From Salinivirga cyanobacteriivorans (GTDB lineage: Bacteria; Bacteroidota; Bacteroidia; Bacteroidales; Salinivirgaceae): a stretch of 64,000 bases of DNA. Numbering within the stretch: the stretch's first letter is position 1; every line of letters starts with the position of its first letter. The stretch is taken from the NCBI RefSeq assembly GCF_001443605.1, contig NZ_CP013118.1, positions 3,157,501 through 3,221,500 on the forward strand, in the 5' to 3' direction. Under the pieces are notes generated by a model that was given only the letters and a program-made list of their open reading frames with translations, had not been told where the DNA came from and ran no database searches. Shown here piece by piece: positions 559 to 50,472 of the stretch. The translations under genes and the position numbers were made by a program.

Positions 559-2346
559 TTATGCCTGGGCTTTTATCCAATTCACCAGACCTTTCTTTTC
601 AATAACTTCCATTAATTTTTCAGGTAATGGCGGGATATCAAAAGTATTATCTCCCACTGTAACTTTCCCTTTAGCCAGGTTGGCTTCTATCTGATCACCG
701 GGGTTGTATTGTTCAACTATATCTTTGTTTACAATAAGTAATAGCCCCTGGTTGATACACGACCTGTAAAAAATTCTGTTTACAGATTTTACAATTACGG
801 CCTTTACGCCTGCATGAGCTAGTCCGACTGCAGGGTGCTCCCTGGAACTACCACAACCAAAGTTTTCTCCGGCTACAATAATATCTCCTTCCTGTACATT
901 TTTGGCGAAATTTTCATCGAAACCAGCAAAGAGGTGCTCCATAATAGCCTCAGGGTCAGAGCTCATAATGTTGTAGGTGAGGTTTCCGGCAAACATCTGG
1001 TCTGTGTTCAGGTTGTCTGCATCGGCATAGTTCCACACACCGTTGAGGTGCCTGTTGTCGCCGGGTTGTATTTCAATGGTATTGCCTTCAGCTTTTGGAT
1101 AGGGGAATTTTTCGTTTCCTGGCTTATCACGTGGATCAGTTATTTCTCCATTTAAGGCACTTAGTGCCACGGCAGCCGGGGAAGCAAGATAAATTTCTGC
1201 GTTTTTATTACCCATGCGTCCTTTGAAATTTCTATTGGCAGTTGATATCACGGTATAATCGTCGGCTGGTATGCCCTGGCCTGTACCCAAACAAGGCCCG
1301 CAGCTTGCTCCAAGCACGTTGGCACCTGCTTCAATAAAGTCGCTGATCAGACCTTCTTTTATGGCCTGCAGATATATTTTTTTCGAGGCCGGGGCTATGA
1401 GTAATTGCACATCTGCGGGAACTTTTTTGCCACGTAATATCTTTGCTGCAATTCTCAGATCCTCAATGCGGCCGTTTGTGCAGGTTCCTATCAGTGCCTG
1501 CTGTATGGCTTTCCCTTTGACTTCGGCAATAGCCTTTACATTATCCACATGGTGTGGAGCTGCAGTAAGCGGGTATAACTCTGAGAGGTTAATGTGTATT
1601 TCGCGAGCATAACTGGCTCCTTCGTCTGCCCAGAAACCATTGGTTACTTTTTTGCCAAGCCATGCCTCCAGTACCTCATCAGGAGGAAATACTGCATTCT
1701 TACCACCCATTTCTGATGCCAGATTCGCAATGGTCATACGTTCTGATATGTCAAGGGTTTTTACGCCCTCTCCATGATACTCTATGCTCATATAGTTGGC
1801 TCCGGCAGAACCTATCATACCAATGATATACAGCGAAAGGTCTTTGGCATAAACACCTTCGGGTAATTTTCCTGAGAGGTTTATTTTGATTGTTTCTGGT
1901 ACCCTGAACCATGTTTCTCCGCGTCGCCAAATCCCTGCAGCTTCTGTTCTGTCAATACCCGCAGCCAGTGCATTAAATGCTCCTGCTGTACAGGTGTGGC
2001 TGTCGCTCCCAACGATAATCATTCCGGGTTTGGCATGGTCGGCCATGATTTGATGGCATATACCATCACCTACATCATGGAATTTATTAACCGATTGTTC
2101 TGATGCAAAGTCCCGGATGGTTTGATATTGCGTAGCCAGTTTTGCATTGGTGGGAGGGGCATTATGGTCCAATACCATTAAGAGTTGGTCGGGATTGGCT
2201 ACCTTTTGTCCACCCATTTTCTCAAAAGTGCCTTTTATACTGGCGCTATTATCGTGTGTCAGTACCAGGTCGGGCTTTTTAAAAACGATGCTACCCACTG
2301 GTGCGTCCAGAATTTTTTCTACAAAAGTTTGTTTATTGTTGCTCAT
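559..2346 (-). CDS. Aconitase/isopropylmalate isomerase family hydro-lyase, large and small domains fused (paralogue A)
   Basis: This is a 595-residue member of the aconitase superfamily. It probably isomerises a hydroxy-di- or tricarboxylic acid by dehydration and rehydration at a [4Fe-4S] cluster in the cytoplasm. Three cluster cysteines are visible: C289 in GTCTNGR, and C349 and C352 in ASCGPCLG. The LeuD-like swivel domain is fused at the C-terminus (ENFGCGSSREH). LeuC and LeuD are normally separate proteins, and this arrangement joins both in one chain. The substrate loop region after NTDQMF reads AGNLTYN, which is not the YLRT-type loop of isopropylmalate isomerase, so the substrate is unclear (aconitate, homoaconitate, methylated malates). 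It lies 16 bp downstream of paralogue B in a two-gene operon. Confidence 0.8.
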   Translation of the reverse strand: MSNNKQTFVEKILDAPVGSIVFKKPDLVLTHDNSASIKGTFEKMGGQKVANPDQLLMVLDHNAPPTNAKLATQYQTIRDFASEQSVNKFHDVGDGICHQIMADHAKPGMIIVGSDSHTCTAGAFNALAAGIDRTEAAGIWRRGETWFRVPETIKINLSGKLPEGVYAKDLSLYIIGMIGSAGANYMSIEYHGEGVKTLDISERMTIANLASEMGGKNAVFPPDEVLEAWLGKKVTNGFWADEGASYAREIHINLSELYPLTAAPHHVDNVKAIAEVKGKAIQQALIGTCTNGRIEDLRIAAKILRGKKVPADVQLLIAPASKKIYLQAIKEGLISDFIEAGANVLGASCGPCLGTGQGIPADDYTVISTANRNFKGRMGNKNAEIYLASPAAVALSALNGEITDPRDKPGNEKFPYPKAEGNTIEIQPGDNRHLNGVWNYADADNLNTDQMFAGNLTYNIMSSDPEAIMEHLFAGFDENFAKNVQEGDIIVAGENFGCGSSREHPAVGLAHAGVKAVIVKSVNRIFYRSCINQGLLLIVNKDIVEQYNPGDQIEANLAKGKVTVGDNTFDIPPLPEKLMEVIEKKGLVNWIKAQA

Positions 2347-2362
2347 AACTTATTGGTTTTCA

Positions 2363-4171
2363 TTAAAACAATCCACCTCTTTGGTATATTTCCATTTGTA
2401 CTTCGCTAAAGGGTTTAATCTGGGTTTGTTTATTTTTTGTGAGGTTCTCCATCAGCCCTGTTTCGAAGTTTACTTTCACGCTGTCACCGGTTGAAAGGTC
2501 CAGTTTTGAAATATCATCATAAGCAAGAATGGGCATTGCAGCATTAATTGCGTTTCGCTCATAAATAGCACCAAATGATTCTGCAATTATGGCTTGTATA
2601 CCAAGTACTTTAAAGCAGTCTACAGCTTGCTGTCGCGAACTACCGCTACCAAAGTTTTTACCTGTAACCACAATATCACCTGGTTCAGATTGTGAGGCAA
2701 ATTTTTCATAACCTTCAAGGTTGTCGAAGGCGTATTGACCCATTTCCTCGGGATCTGTAATAGATAAATACCGGTTATGGAAAATCATGTCAGTATCGAT
2801 ATTGTCTCTTTCAATAAACCAGACCCGGCCTTCAACCACAGTTTTTTTCTCATTTACGGCCTTGTCTTTTTCTGTTTTGCTTTTAGGTGCGGGTGCGTAA
2901 TTGGTGTCGAAAAGTAAGGGTTCGTCTGGTATATTTTCAGGTGTGGTAATGTAACCAGCCACTGCTGATGCGGCTACTACAGCCGGCGAGGCCAGGTAAA
3001 CTTCTCCTTTACCCTGTTTTCCCGGGAAGTTTCTGTTACCAGTGCTAATAGTAATTTCTCCGGGGCCATTTTGCCCTACCTGTCCGGCAGCACATCCTGC
3101 ACACCCGGCATTTGAGATTAATGCTCCTGCATTTTTAAAGATTTGTAGCAGGCCGTCTTCTAAGGCCTGTTCCCAAACTTCATTTGTCGAAGGCACGATT
3201 TTAAATACAACACCCGGTGCAACCTGTCGTCCTTTGAGGATAGCTGCAGCAGTTCTCAGGTCTTCGATACGTCCGTTAGTGCAACTGCCAAGAAAAGCAG
3301 AGTCTATTTTGATTTTGTCTAGCTTGTCAATGTTTTGTGTGTCATGCGGAGCCCCGGGTAATGAAACTTTAGGGGTGAATTTACTGATATCCAGAGATAT
3401 TTCCTGGTCATACTCGGCATCATCGTCTGCGTAAACAGGTTCTATTTTGTGGCCAGCGCGTGCTTCACTATATTTTAATATTTCTGCTGTAGGAGGAAAT
3501 ATAAGTGTAATGGCACCCATTTCAGTACCCATCGAAGCAATGGTGATACGTTCATCAAGTGTGAGCTCGTCAATTGCTTCTCCATAAAACTCCACGGAGT
3601 ATCCAAGTAGGGTATTTGCCCCAAATTTTTCAAGCAGGTTAAGTACGATATCCTTTGCAGTGACTTTCTCCGGACGTTTACCTGTAAAATTAAGTTTAAT
3701 TGATTTTGGAGTCTTAAACCAAATCATACCATTTGCCCATGCTGCAGCTATATCTTTATCGCCCATGCCCTGACCGAAGGCTCCTACAGCACCCAGTATA
3801 TTAGCATGCGAGTCTGTTGTAATGGCTGTGCGTCCTGAATATACCAGACCTTCGTGAATCATGGTATGGGTTCCGATTCCATTATCGATATCATAAACTT
3901 TTATGCCATATTCGCGGGCAAATTGTCTGCAAATTTGCTGGTTAACGGCATATTTTTGGTCCGATCCGGTTGGATTGGTATCAAAAGTAAAGAAGGTTTT
4001 ATCCGGATCTACAATCGTAAGGTTGTTGTCTCTGATGTTTTTTACAACATTGGCACCACCAAAGTCTCTGGCAGCTCGTACATCAATTTCAATATCTACA
4101 ATGTCTCCGGGTTTTACATCATATTTGGCAGAATGCGAAGCCAGTATTTTTTCAATTATTGTTTTTCCCAT
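2363..4171 (-). CDS. Aconitase/isopropylmalate isomerase family hydro-lyase, large and small domains fused (paralogue B)
   Basis: This is the second fused aconitase-superfamily hydro-lyase, about 602 residues from the preferred start. Cluster cysteines are C297 (GSCTNGR) and C357 and C360 (GCAGCAAG). The C-terminal swivel domain shows GKNFGSGSSRQQ, and the substrate loop region reads DTDMIFHNRYLSI. The Met at 4171 (MGKTIIEKIL) is chosen over one nine codons upstream. It matches the family N-terminus, and a TATATTTG promoter element at 4200-4207 would place the transcript start close to the upstream Met. It heads a two-gene operon with paralogue A. The divergence of the two copies suggests different substrates rather than redundancy. 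I cannot decide between aconitase, homoaconitase-like and isopropylmalate-like roles. Confidence 0.8.
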   Translation of the reverse strand: MGKTIIEKILASHSAKYDVKPGDIVDIEIDVRAARDFGGANVVKNIRDNNLTIVDPDKTFFTFDTNPTGSDQKYAVNQQICRQFAREYGIKVYDIDNGIGTHTMIHEGLVYSGRTAITTDSHANILGAVGAFGQGMGDKDIAAAWANGMIWFKTPKSIKLNFTGKRPEKVTAKDIVLNLLEKFGANTLLGYSVEFYGEAIDELTLDERITIASMGTEMGAITLIFPPTAEILKYSEARAGHKIEPVYADDDAEYDQEISLDISKFTPKVSLPGAPHDTQNIDKLDKIKIDSAFLGSCTNGRIEDLRTAAAILKGRQVAPGVVFKIVPSTNEVWEQALEDGLLQIFKNAGALISNAGCAGCAAGQVGQNGPGEITISTGNRNFPGKQGKGEVYLASPAVVAASAVAGYITTPENIPDEPLLFDTNYAPAPKSKTEKDKAVNEKKTVVEGRVWFIERDNIDTDMIFHNRYLSITDPEEMGQYAFDNLEGYEKFASQSEPGDIVVTGKNFGSGSSRQQAVDCFKVLGIQAIIAESFGAIYERNAINAAMPILAYDDISKLDLSTGDSVKVNFETGLMENLTKNKQTQIKPFSEVQMEIYQRGGLF

Positions 4172-4199
4172 GGTAAGTTTGGTTTTGTTTTGTTTCAAA

Positions 4200-4207
4200 C
4201 AAATATA
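4200..4207 (-). promoter_or_regulatory. Putative -7 element (TATATTTG) of the hydro-lyase operon
   Basis: On the minus strand the sequence reads TATATTTG, an exact match to the Bacteroidota TAnnTTTG -7 consensus. It lies about 29 nt upstream of the chosen start at 4171. No clear TTTG -33 box was found at the usual spacing. Confidence 0.45.
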
Positions 4208-4388
4208 ATATTTTAGCCTTGGAAAAGGTAATTCTTTTAATATTTTGGTTGAGGCTATGATTATTATGACATTTTAAACCTGATGCTTTTGCAATAGGGA
4301 GTTCACAGAGCATGATTTGTGAAATTAAAATGTGGTATTGATTTAAAAAAAAACGATTTTTTTGATACTAATCAGAGATATTACGGAA

Positions 4389-4504
4389 CAAATGAAACTT
4401 TTTGTATGTTTCATTGTTTGAATATAGCATCCAAAAAAAATATAGGTGTTGAATAGTTATTGGGATGCTGCGAGGAATGGTTAGTCACCATTCCTCTTTT
4501 TTTT
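4389..4504 (+). ncRNA. Candidate structured small RNA ending in a strong terminator
   Basis: Three inverted repeats lie in succession in a gene-free stretch. AATGAAAC (4391-4398) pairs with GTTTCATT (4408-4415). AGCATCC (4426-4432) pairs with GGATGCT (4463-4469). The terminator hairpin is at 4472-4496 with a T-run. No plus-strand gene lies upstream that needs terminating, because the flanking gene starts on the minus strand at 4171. The EamA gene has its own promoter motif after the terminator. A short non-coding transcript would explain this arrangement; the alternative is a leader or attenuator of the EamA gene. No promoter for it was identified, so confidence is low. Confidence 0.3.
4472..4504 (+). 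terminator. Strong rho-independent terminator upstream of the EamA gene
   Basis: GAGGAATGGT (4472-4481) and ACCATTCCTC (4487-4496) form a perfect 10-bp stem with a 5-nt loop, followed by eight T (4497-4504). It points in the plus direction. Confidence 0.8.
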
Positions 4505-46783: not shown

Positions 46784-48970
46784 ATGGATAGAGACCTTAA
46801 CAAAGTTGCAATTAGACCAAAGGCCCAGCGTGTTTTTCATACTTTGCTGGAGGAGAATCCTCGATTAAAGGATATATTAAAGAATGCAGAGAGTGCTGAT
46901 CAGGCCCGTGAAGCCATGGAAGCATGGGCAAAAGAGTTGATAAACAAGAGTAAACCGGCAAGCGATTTTTTGTTTAAGGATATTGATAAACGCGTAGCTT
47001 TCGAGAAGCTGAACTGGCAGGATAAAGCTGCTATCAGACTTTATGACTATATACAGCATACCGGACGACGCATACAGGACCCAAGCTTATTCCTGGCCGA
47101 GGAATCTGTACTCGACCCGTTTGGGATTATGTGGGAGGCTTTTAAAACCGGGCGTGGTGGTGCTATGTATTATTTCTATCTGGATATGTTATATCTTTTC
47201 CGTCAGCTAAATGGAACGCTTAAGGAGGAGAAACCAACCCTGGATAAGGTAAGAAACTGGATGGACCGTCACCCTTCAGGTCTTGAGGATGATATACTTA
47301 AGGAACACAACAAAAACCGGGACCGTATTTTATCTGTTTTTTTAAGAAAAATGGAATCAGGTGAAATAAACGATCCGAAATATAATTACGATCAATCGAA
47401 ATCATTCGAAGAAAACTTGCAAAATGCACGTGATGTGTGGTGGAACGACCGTGTTTTTCATTTAAAATTTGCTGCACGTACCCCTGAGCTTATTGATGAG
47501 TTGCTTGATCATTCGCTCAATAAAGAAACTTTATCTATTATGCAGGATGCCAAAGATGCTGGTATTCCATTTTTCGTTAATCCCTATTACCTGTCACTTA
47601 TTAGTGTGGATCATACAGAACACGTGGGTGCCGATTTACCAATTCGTGACTATATTTTTTATTCTCGTCAGCTCGTTGACGAGTTTGGTGAAATCCAGGC
47701 ATGGGAGAAAGAAGATATTGTTGAGCCCGGAAAGCCCAACGCCGCCGGGTGGATACTACCTTCACAGCATAATGTGCACAGACGTTATCCCGAAGTTGCC
47801 ATTCTAATTCCCGATACCGTCGGACGGGCATGTGCAGGATTGTGTTCATCGTGTCAAAGAATGTACGATTTTCAGAGTGGTCATTTGAATTTCAACCTGG
47901 ATAAACTCCAGCCGAATGAGAAATGGTCTGATAAATTAAAGCGCCTGATGCAATATTTTGAAGAGGATTCGCAGCTTCGCGATATTCTTATTACAGGTGG
48001 TGATGCCTTAATGAGTAGCGATCGTTCGCTCAAGCACATACTGGATGAAGTATATCAAATGGCATTGCGCAAGCGCAAAGCCAATGAGCAGCGCCCAGAG
48101 GGAGATAAATATGCAGAAATGGTGCGTATTCGTCTTGGTACAAGGTTGCCCATTTATTTGCCACAAAGAATTACACCGGAATTAATTGAAATATTGTCGG
48201 AGTTCAAGCAAAAAGCTGCAAAAATTGGATTTAAGCAGTTCGTCATTCAAACACACTTTGAGTCTGCTATGGAGGTAACACCTGTTGTGAAGCAAGGTGT
48301 TGAAAGGTTGATTTCTGCCGGCTGGACCGTTACTAATCAGCAGGTATTTACTACAGCAGCCTCACGTCGCGGCCATACTGCTAAACTTCGCAAGGTACTA
48401 AACGATATTGGCGTACTAACTTACTATACCTTTTCTGTAAAAGGGTTTATGGAGAACAGTCACAATTTTGCCACTAATGAGCGAGCCATGCAGGAGCAGC
48501 AAGAAGAGAAGTTGCTGGGTAAAATTCCGGAAGAAGAGTATGATACCATACGCTCATTCCCTGTTAATGCAGAAAATATGATCAGCCAGATTGAAAAGTT
48601 GAGAAATAAACTCAATATTCCCTTTTTAGCGACTGACCGTAATGTGTTGAACCTTCCGGGAGTGGGTAAAAGTCTCACATACCGTGTAATTGGCGTAACC
48701 CGTTTTGGTAAACGGGTGTTGGAGTTTGACCATGATCATACGCGTACACACAGCCCTATTATTGAGAAAATGGGTAAGTTCTATATTGTTGAATCAAAAC
48801 CCATTGGCCAGTATCTTGAAGAATTAGAGGAGATGGGTGAGGACATAAATGAATATCTCTCTGTTTATGGTTATTCAATTGGTGAAACTGAGCACAGAAT
48901 GCCAATTTATGAGTATCCGGAGTACGATTTTGAAATGACAGGTAAAATGACAAACCTTGAAATAGGATAA
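46784..48970 (+). CDS. Large KamA-family radical SAM aminomutase
   Basis: This 728-residue radical SAM protein is related to lysine 2,3-aminomutase, which moves an amino group using S-adenosylmethionine and PLP. The cluster motif is C350-x3-C354-x2-C357 (CAGLCSSC). The PLP-binding lysine corresponds to K629 in LPGVGKS. Other matches are LITGGDALMSSD and IRLGTRLPIYLPQRI. Typical KamA proteins have about 420 residues; this one has about 250 extra N-terminal, mainly helical residues and a longer tail. The substrate may be lysine, glutamate or a larger molecule. The gene stands alone, without lysine-fermentation genes. Confidence 0.9.
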   Translation: MDRDLNKVAIRPKAQRVFHTLLEENPRLKDILKNAESADQAREAMEAWAKELINKSKPASDFLFKDIDKRVAFEKLNWQDKAAIRLYDYIQHTGRRIQDPSLFLAEESVLDPFGIMWEAFKTGRGGAMYYFYLDMLYLFRQLNGTLKEEKPTLDKVRNWMDRHPSGLEDDILKEHNKNRDRILSVFLRKMESGEINDPKYNYDQSKSFEENLQNARDVWWNDRVFHLKFAARTPELIDELLDHSLNKETLSIMQDAKDAGIPFFVNPYYLSLISVDHTEHVGADLPIRDYIFYSRQLVDEFGEIQAWEKEDIVEPGKPNAAGWILPSQHNVHRRYPEVAILIPDTVGRACAGLCSSCQRMYDFQSGHLNFNLDKLQPNEKWSDKLKRLMQYFEEDSQLRDILITGGDALMSSDRSLKHILDEVYQMALRKRKANEQRPEGDKYAEMVRIRLGTRLPIYLPQRITPELIEILSEFKQKAAKIGFKQFVIQTHFESAMEVTPVVKQGVERLISAGWTVTNQQVFTTAASRRGHTAKLRKVLNDIGVLTYYTFSVKGFMENSHNFATNERAMQEQQEEKLLGKIPEEEYDTIRSFPVNAENMISQIEKLRNKLNIPFLATDRNVLNLPGVGKSLTYRVIGVTRFGKRVLEFDHDHTRTHSPIIEKMGKFYIVESKPIGQYLEELEEMGEDINEYLSVYGYSIGETEHRMPIYEYPEYDFEMTGKMTNLEIG

Positions 48971-48990
48971 TTAAGAAATGATTCAAATAT

Positions 48991-49017
48991 AAAGGTGGTA
49001 GCAAAACCACCTTTTTA
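48991..49017 (+). terminator. Rho-independent terminator of the KamA-family gene
   Basis: AAAGGTGGT (48991-48999) and ACCACCTTT (49006-49014) form a perfect 9-bp stem, followed by T's. Its right arm lies inside the first copy of the 38-bp direct repeat. Confidence 0.75.
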
Positions 49018-49037
49018 TATCGCAAAAAAAACTCCGG
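49000..49037 (+). repeat. Direct repeat, left copy (38 bp)
   Basis: The 38 bases at 49000-49037 match 49717-49754 with a single difference (T versus C at the seventeenth base). The copy begins AGCAAAACCACC and ends AAACTCCGG. It contains the right arm of the KamA-gene terminator and the left half of the next terminator, as expected for a duplicated target site. Confidence 0.9.
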
Positions 49038-49162
49038 TTCCTGTTTTGTGCAATGGGGCACCCAAACTGCAGAATGCACTAGTATGGAAAGCTCTATTTT
49101 TACTTACAATCTTTAATTTTACTTTTTTTGCTACAGGTCAAAAAAAGTAAACAAAAAAAAAC

Positions 49163-49310
49163 GCCGCTTACAGAAAAATGCTAAAAACCTGGTCATTATG
49201 GCTAAAGTTTACGAACTCACACCGATTTTTTTGAAAAATCGGTGCTCAAACAGCGCAAACTTTGACGCCATAATAACAAGGTTTTCTTAACGCATTTTTC
49301 TTCATGCGGC
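49163..49310. repeat. Large imperfect hairpin inside the insertion-like element
   Basis: Paired blocks from outside in are 49163-49167 with 49306-49310 (GCCGC), 49173-49181 with 49292-49300, and 49184-49189 with 49280-49285. Further in are 49195-49202 with 49267-49274, and 49204-49210 with 49257-49263. The apex ACCGATTTTT (49221-49230) pairs perfectly with 49234-49243 around a 3-nt loop. This is about 45 paired bases in total. Confidence 0.8.
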
Positions 49311-49364
49311 TAGCTGGCAAACCTTTTACTGCTGATCAACGACCATACTAAATTACTCTTAAAT

Positions 49365-49528
49365 TCGTGAGGGCTAAAGCCATTGGCGGACCGGCGCAGG
49401 AATGAATGTTCTACTCGAATAATCCATTGAATAAAGCGCGGTAAACAGCCTGTTCCGATAGAATCGGAAGCGAAGCCCTCATGAGCAAATAGACGAATAA
49501 TCGTAATTTGGTCTTGATTTCCGCCAAT
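49365..49528. repeat. Crossing inverted repeats in the right half of the element
   Basis: TCGTGAGGGCT (49365-49375) pairs with AGCCCTCATGA (49474-49484) with one mismatch. ATTGGCGGA (49382-49390) pairs perfectly with TCCGCCAAT (49520-49528). The two helices cross, so they would form a pseudoknot or exclude each other. A perfect TTCCGAT/ATCGGAA hairpin (49453-49469) lies within the first. Confidence 0.6.
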
Positions 49529-49716
49529 TGTCGGACAGGTTTGATCAAGGAAAAGGATAAGAGAAATCATTCATCACGGAGTCCCGGATTTATGTATCAT
49601 AGTTTAATTCTATTGAGCGAAATTGAACGGGTCACCCAAAACATCAAATTGAAACTCACAATAGACTGATAATCAGCGGTTTATTTTTAGGATGTCGATG
49701 TGGTGCACAAAACAGC

Positions 49717-49754
49717 AGCAAAACCACCTTTTCATATCGCAAAAAAAACTCCGG
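49717..49754 (+). repeat. Direct repeat, right copy (38 bp)
   Basis: This is the right-hand copy of the 38-bp repeat at 49000-49037, with one difference. It starts one base after the right terminal inverted repeat and runs into the bidirectional terminator. Confidence 0.9.
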
Positions 49755-49772
49755 CTAAACCGGAGTTTTTTT
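49741..49772. terminator. Bidirectional terminator between the KamA region and tonB
   Basis: AAACTCCGG (49746-49754) and CCGGAGTTT (49760-49768) form a perfect stem with loop CTAAA. It is flanked by A- and T-runs on both sides, so it works on both strands. It ends minus-strand transcription of the TonB gene, whose stop is at 49789. Confidence 0.85.
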
Positions 49773-49788
49773 GTTTTATATTGAAAAA

Positions 49789-50472
49789 CTATTGAAGTTT
49801 GAAATTAATTGGTACCTGATATCTTACATAAACTGGTTTACCGCGTTGCTTACCAGGCTTCCATTTAGGCATGTTTTTTACAACCCTAACAGCTTCCTTG
49901 TCTAATGATGGATCAACACCACGAAGTACTGTTACATTGGTAATCGAACCGTCTTTTCCAACAACAAACTGAATAAATACTTTACCCTGAATTCCGTTTT
50001 CTTTAGCAATAGCCGGATATTGAATATTCTGGCTAATGTATTTGAACAATTCTGCTTGTCCACCAGGGAATTCCGGCATTTGTTCCACAACCATGAAAAT
50101 TTCGGGCTCTTCTTCCTCAACCTCTTCTTCAATCATGATATCTGTTTGTTCAATCATGGTTTCTTCATCGGCCTCTGTATCGATATCAAGCTCATCGTCA
50201 AGCTCTTCTTCATTATCTACTACAGTAAGCTCTTCAATTACCTTTTTCTTTGGTGGTGGGGGTGGTGGTTCAACTTTCTCCTGACGTTGTGTCTGGATCA
50301 TTTCTTCCTCCATATTGACTTCCATTACTTGTCCCAGATCTTCAGCTGTTCCGGTTGAACTGTTCCAGTTGAAAGCTACAAGTAACAAGCCCAATACAGC
50401 TACAAGCCCTGCAAGCATGAGCGTACCGCGTCCCTTTTCAAGGCTTACTTTTGGATTCTTTTTTACTTCCAT
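49789..50472 (-). CDS. TonB-family energy transducer (copy 1)
   Basis: This 227-residue TonB-like protein carries proton-motive energy to outer-membrane transporters. It has one membrane helix (about 18-36, LMLAGLVAVLGLLLVAF), a Pro-rich PPPPPPKKK stretch near 68-77 and a very acidic periplasmic linker (about 80-125). The C-terminal TonB domain has FPGGQAELFKYISQNIQYPA, GKVFIQFVVGKDG and MPKWKPGKQRGKPV. It is a tandem paralogue of the gene at 50664-51341. No outer-membrane receptor or ExbB/ExbD gene is nearby. Confidence 0.93.
   Translation of the reverse strand: MEVKKNPKVSLEKGRGTLMLAGLVAVLGLLLVAFNWNSSTGTAEDLGQVMEVNMEEEMIQTQRQEKVEPPPPPPKKKVIEELTVVDNEEELDDELDIDTEADEETMIEQTDIMIEEEVEEEEPEIFMVVEQMPEFPGGQAELFKYISQNIQYPAIAKENGIQGKVFIQFVVGKDGSITNVTVLRGVDPSLDKEAVRVVKNMPKWKPGKQRGKPVYVRYQVPINFKLQ

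Follow-up and report, generated by a model that had tools for sequence, protein, structure and literature searches.

The window, that is the whole stretch of 64,000 nucleotides analysed here, comes from Salinivirga cyanobacteriivorans (contig NZ_CP013118.1, positions 3,157,501 to 3,221,500), and the element under study lies in it between a kamA-like and a convergent tonB-like gene, whose names were taken over from the initial annotation (Table 1). That annotation had described a 679-bp segment (49038-49716) with perfect 12-bp terminal repeats, enclosed by 38-bp direct repeats with one mismatch. The direct repeats are present (49000-49037 and 49717-49754; 38 nt, 97%), as are the inverted 12-mers (49041-49052 and 49704-49715; 100% identity), whereas the boundaries were revised because most sister copies in the genome read C-CTG...CAG-G at their ends. 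The element thus spans 49040-49716 with 13-bp ends, CCTGTTTTGTGCA and TGCACAAAACAGC, the duplication measures 40 bp with 38 matches, and the asymmetry by which the terminal repeats had appeared to lie 3 and 1 bases inside the direct repeats vanishes. The right end finishes with C, compared with G in most copies. The duplication scored 32, while 2000 position pairs drawn at random from the window, 400-1000 bp apart and subjected to identical scoring of repeats of up to 400 bp, gave a maximum of 4 with none reaching 15, which rules out a chance repeat as its source.

Table 1. Features of the gap between the kamA-like and tonB-like genes (window positions)
Feature	Position	Strand	Remarks
kamA-like gene, left neighbour	46784..48970	+	ORF of 728 aa; encoded protein 78-79% identical in the two same-genus genomes
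Terminator-like hairpin after kamA-like gene	48987..49018	+	intact left of the element
Left copy of 40-bp target duplication	49000..49039	.	38/40 identical to right copy
Non-autonomous IS1634-type element (MITE), probable, 677 bp	49040..49716	.	family-shared ends; 72 own-genome BLAST matches
Left terminal inverted repeat CCTGTTTTGTGCA	49040..49052	+	11-12 bp behind it match 3' (downstream) end of L249 and L150
Large internal palindrome	49163..49310	.	blastn self-match to own reverse complement, 71%
Right terminal inverted repeat	49704..49716	-	final base C, not G; 38 bp inside it match 5' (upstream) end of L150
Right copy of 40-bp target duplication	49717..49756	.	
Second terminator-like hairpin, before 3' end of convergent tonB-like gene	49742..49772	.	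uninterrupted in G002 (L216) and G001 (L215)
tonB-like gene, right neighbour	49789..50472	-	ORF of 227 aa; 74% (G001) and 88% (G002) identical protein beside kamA-like gene

Both terminators previously noted at the insertion were found as well, with arms at 48987-48999/49006-49018 and 49742-49754/49760-49772. The insertion cut beside the loop of the second terminator hairpin, and the duplication rebuilt that hairpin. The search for an empty site in relatives, proposed in the initial annotation, was carried out in G001 and G002, both other genomes of the genus available for comparison. In G002 two terminators side by side separate the kamA-like gene (79% protein identity) from the convergent tonB-like gene (88%), and the element is absent. 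It is absent from G001 too, where a single terminator lies between the kamA-like (78%) and tonB-like (74%) genes and closely resembles the second one in the window (AAAAAAACTCCGG...GGAGTTTTTTT). The gaps of both relatives are only partly similar to that of the window, and the empty sites are recognised by gene order and terminators, not by base-for-base identity. These empty gaps, together with the dispersed copies described below, rule out an element fixed between kamA and tonB. The repeats could be taken for something other than a target duplication, namely an old intergenic unit between homologous terminators or a product of recombination, and they do overlap the terminator hairpins. However, the segment is missing from two relatives, one of which (G002) keeps both terminators, and other copies carry different duplications of many lengths, so that such an origin is extremely improbable. 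The earlier proposal that the direct repeats represent a duplicated target was thereby corroborated, by copies with differing flanks as well as by the two same-genus gaps without the element.

An 86-aa ORF lies inside the element (49310-49570, - strand), and no transposase remnant was found in the interior. When 20 copies were searched by tblastn with four IS1634-type transposases, there was no match at E<=1, in agreement with the previous statement that no transposase is encoded. In addition, the initial annotation had taken the long duplication and the missing transposase to suggest an unusual mechanism of transposition or recombination, or a mobile element of structured RNA or DNA moved in trans. 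The very long duplication, the lack of a detectable transposase inside the element and a strong predicted fold (z -6.8) would suit an unknown system or RNA of that kind. Nevertheless, the two strands fold about equally well (z -6.8 versus -6.4, with 20 shuffles per strand), as expected of a DNA palindrome, and both the ends and the duplications are common to IS1634-family DDE elements. With 0 Rfam matches in the window at gathering score and no strand-favoured fold, a structured RNA was rejected, and we consider any such system very unlikely, since the ends and the style of duplication are those of IS1634-family transposons, here and in relatives. A short hairpin, TTTACTTTTTTTG...CAAAAAAAGTAAA, was observed at window positions 49118-49151; the same or a similar hairpin occurs in three genomes of the same order (G007, G015, G086), without the window element's ends in the short stretches inspected.

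MITE copies without a transposase gene occur at several places in the genome, with common ends and different flanks. Many of the 72 own-genome blastn matches to the window element are partial. Allowing one mismatch, the 12-base end was counted 127 times in the genome, compared with 22 times for a reversed control. We catalogued 18 MITE-type insertions, comprising single copies, arrays and one composite (25 insertions when the seven insertion sequences described below are included); one-ended or truncated copies (L032, L035, L045, L051, L052, L054, L056, L057) were left out of this count, and so were L041 and L046 on account of mutated or interrupted ends. In 14 of the 18, direct repeats (40-284 bp) abut the ends by an ungapped measure (random control 0/2000), their lengths being 40, 65, 101, 44, 174, 77, 98, 60, 163, 168, 274, 105, 284, and 71 bp. 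The other four comprise two arrays with repeated unit boundaries and two insertions (2667762 and 3606428) that show none. Another copy, adjacent to a resident IS, is flanked by a repeat of 144 bp. For the array at 3634882, the outermost repeats match at 83/105 positions ungapped, and at 99% of 106 with gaps. The MITE at 2389155 carries a perfect 98-bp duplication, and some MITE movement is therefore recent. Single units are between 365 and 1006 bp long, and their interiors differ, with pairwise coverage from 0 to 100%. In ten 1.5-kb stretches around single one-mismatch matches (L059-L068), no convincing pair of ends was found.

Several insertions (L034, L037, L046, L047, L049, L053, L055) are arrays built as duplication-(element-duplication)n with two to four units, for which unequal crossing-over between long duplications would be the simplest cause; those at 2190161 and 3586026 have common flanks. 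Genes for IS701- and IS256-family transposases were noticed inside MITE copies or arrays (L034:3901-5271 and L046:4634-5800). Transposases of these two types were considered as mobilisers and rejected, as the genes look like insertions into the MITEs. The composite (L044:2784-10146, corresponding to G000:C1:2779283-2786645) is 7.4 kb long and consists of two MITEs bounding 5.9 kb of cargo with two large ORFs, one of 1144 and one of 407 aa; the C-termini of both we take to resemble T9SS sorting domains. The outer flanks form a 168-bp duplication with 167 identical positions, so that all 7.4 kb were most likely transposed together as one composite. The genes flanking it are adjacent and convergent without the composite in G002, and in G001 the right-hand one has another ORF as its neighbour. 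The 3' ends of both convergent neighbours are preserved, since they fall within the duplication, which illustrates that long duplications can spare genes upon insertion.

The genome also contains seven intact insertion sequences (ISs) of the IS1634 family and one broken copy (about 686671-689130) with a CCGGAT-type end. An IS of 1.6 kb adjoining the MITE copy L041 encodes a 496-aa IS1634-family transposase, and the resident transposase matches NF033559 above its curated cut-off (344.8 bits versus 100, E about 1e-102). Intact resident ISs are 1622 bp long with ends CCTGTTTTCCGGAT, beginning CCTGTTTT, and are flanked by duplications of 88-241 bp in six of seven cases; the seventh lies within a tandem repeat, on which the measure breaks down. 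One resident copy was seen inside an extended array whose repeats are about 66 bp long and have a constant part of 28-29 bp (L072, around 1395-4410). At L041 (1296-3970) the IS1634 copy and the MITE share the left target edge, give or take a base or two, and their duplications, about 98 and 144 bp long, are nested; the resident IS was inserted there at an edge already used by a MITE.

Turning to other genomes, 65 of 80 IS1634-type loci were analysed (the other 15 being partial, redundant or otherwise excluded), and 23 of them have repeats abutting both ends. For the 42 without such repeats it should be considered that many lie close to the end of a draft contig and that duplications of 5-6 bp fall below detection. 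Upon re-measurement of 22 relatives (L157, whose inverted repeat is not of the CCTG type, was excluded), ungapped duplications of 16-452 bp were obtained for 21, and only a gapped one of 564 bp for L169. This suggests that long duplications are common in IS1634-family members of Bacteroidota, and not a rarity of two elements. Comparison of the terminal inverted repeats with transposase-bearing members of the family revealed CCTGTTTTGTGC exactly at both ends of L129, L130 (duplication 222 bp) and L249, and exactly at one end, with one or two differences at the other, in L131 (452-453 bp), L132, L136, L150, and L220. The similarity extends beyond the inverted repeat: the DNA behind the left end of the window MITE resembles the 3' end of L249 (p 0.010) and L150 (p 0.012), that behind its right end resembles the 5' end of L150 (p 0.004), and sister copies reach p 0.001. 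When six MITE ends were paired with ten IS ends (1000 shuffles, p values given only below 0.02), 11 of 60 pairings fell below this threshold (0.001-0.014) against about one expected, and all 11 correspond in orientation, left-type MITE ends pairing with IS 3' ends (7) and right-type with IS 5' ends (4). At least one match was obtained for four of the six MITE ends; L050_b and L058_R gave none at p < 0.02. One matching IS end (G072) was also found by blastn with the window element.

Judging from these sequence comparisons, 49040-49716 is in all probability a MITE belonging to the IS1634 family (DDE transposons), moved by a transposase in trans that would join its two ends to opposite strands, and its mobiliser is most likely an IS1634-family transposase. 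Movement in trans, already suggested in the initial annotation, is supported by dispersed copies with common ends and different flanks and by the two same-genus gaps that lack the element. The repeats of 38-40 bases at the window element would arise because some IS1634 members duplicate long, variable target stretches. Which member supplied the transposase is less certain. One may suppose that the resident elements with ends CCTGTTTTCCGGAT move the MITEs themselves, in which case the system would be complete and active in this genome. They share CCTGTTTT and the target signature with the MITEs, a GGACACCCA-like subterminal motif is common to them and one end of the sister copy L058 (p 0.014; the window copy does not fall below 0.02), the resident IS at L041 sits at the target edge of a MITE within a base or two, and the 98-bp duplication at 2389155 speaks for recent movement. 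In contrast, the resident ISs and the window MITE share only CCTGTTTT of their ends and differ beyond it (GTGCA in the MITE versus CCGGA at positions 9-13 of the terminal inverted repeat), and better end matches are found in IS elements of other genomes. Mobilisation by the resident elements is thus rather unlikely in our view. We infer the identity of the mobiliser indirectly, because a CCTGTTTTGTGC-ended transposase, including a degraded one, was sought in the genome and not found; it was presumably a CCTGTTTTGTGC-type IS1634 element now absent here, with the resident CCGGAT-type being the less likely source, and the simplest reading is that it was lost or only transiently present in this genome.

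The target sites of the 25 insertions were then compared, the two copies inside the composite not being entered separately and the array at 2190161 being omitted for its identity in flanks with 3586026. Read toward the element, the base adjoining the cut is T for 44 of 50 ends (binomial p 2.4e-16 versus the base composition of the window), and it is preceded by a pyrimidine at 42 of 50. The same is observed for 22 elements of other genomes, with T at 38 of 44 ends and the preceding pyrimidine at 39 of 44. This YT signature is identical at both cuts whatever their distance, and hence would fit separate site choice by each of the two strand transfers. Long and variable duplications are shared by the MITEs (40-284 bp), the resident ISs (88-241 bp) and the relatives (16-452 bp and the gapped 564 bp). 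In the mechanism we propose, the transposase acting in trans would recognise the CCTGTTTTGTGC ends together with a subterminal motif and join the two element ends to opposite target strands; the sites of the two transfers may be selected independently of each other, at distances of tens to hundreds of bases, and repair synthesis would then duplicate all DNA between them. As a tentative generalisation, for which we claim less than even confidence, IS1634-family transposases of this kind might work without a fixed cut spacing: either end would be linked to a YT site of its own, the two sites lying on opposite strands and separated by anything from about 16 to more than 500 bp, and the host would then copy the intervening strand. 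For a test of this, the 25 insertions (18 MITE-type and seven IS), the arrays and the cargo composite would provide natural material.

The unusual duplication is thus real and belongs to a known family. According to the excerpt of a 2008 review used here (PMC2266710), IS1634-family duplications are typically 5-6 bp, with IS1549 and IS1634 as exceptions that have long variable ones of 8-514 bp, for which no mechanistic model had yet been proposed. The mechanism behind the long duplications is therefore unusual, as the initial annotation held, while an unknown or RNA-based element is no longer needed to account for it. The value of the present set lies in the many insertions within one genome, which bear on how IS1634 transposition makes long duplications: with short elements carrying IS1634-type ends and a distance-independent signature, this question becomes directly testable with a small donor. 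In a literature search that covered few subscription journals, no IS1634-family MITE with long duplications was recognisable from titles and the opening of abstracts; a MITE assigned to ISL3 has been reported (excerpt of PMC11448079). The elements described here resemble IS1634 and IS1549 in their long duplications of variable length, and the window MITE end CCTGTTTT fits the family pattern C-----YT given in the same review excerpt (PMC2266710), whereas typical members of the family make the short duplications mentioned above. With the Bacteroidota IS1634 members found here they share ends and subterminal motifs, and they differ from IS1634-family ISs, which are about 1.6-1.8 kb long, in that units of 365-1006 bp lack a transposase gene. 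MITEs whose parent IS has been recognised are well known; as far as the excerpts of PMC9769881 and PMC6382973 describe them, MITECca01/ISCca4 and MITEAba12/ISAba12 are comparable in being short and multi-copy with ends that match a transposase-bearing IS. However, the parent of MITECca01 belongs to the IS982 family (PMC9769881), the duplications of MITEAba12 are 9 bp (PMC6382973) compared with 40-284 bp here, and a transposase of the parent type was not found in the same genome in our case. The MITE-flanked class 1 integrons (MITE-297; excerpt of PMC6382973) likewise consist of two MITEs bounding cargo, the L044 unit being distinguished from these composites by its 168-bp target duplication and its two large ORFs (1144 and 407 aa).
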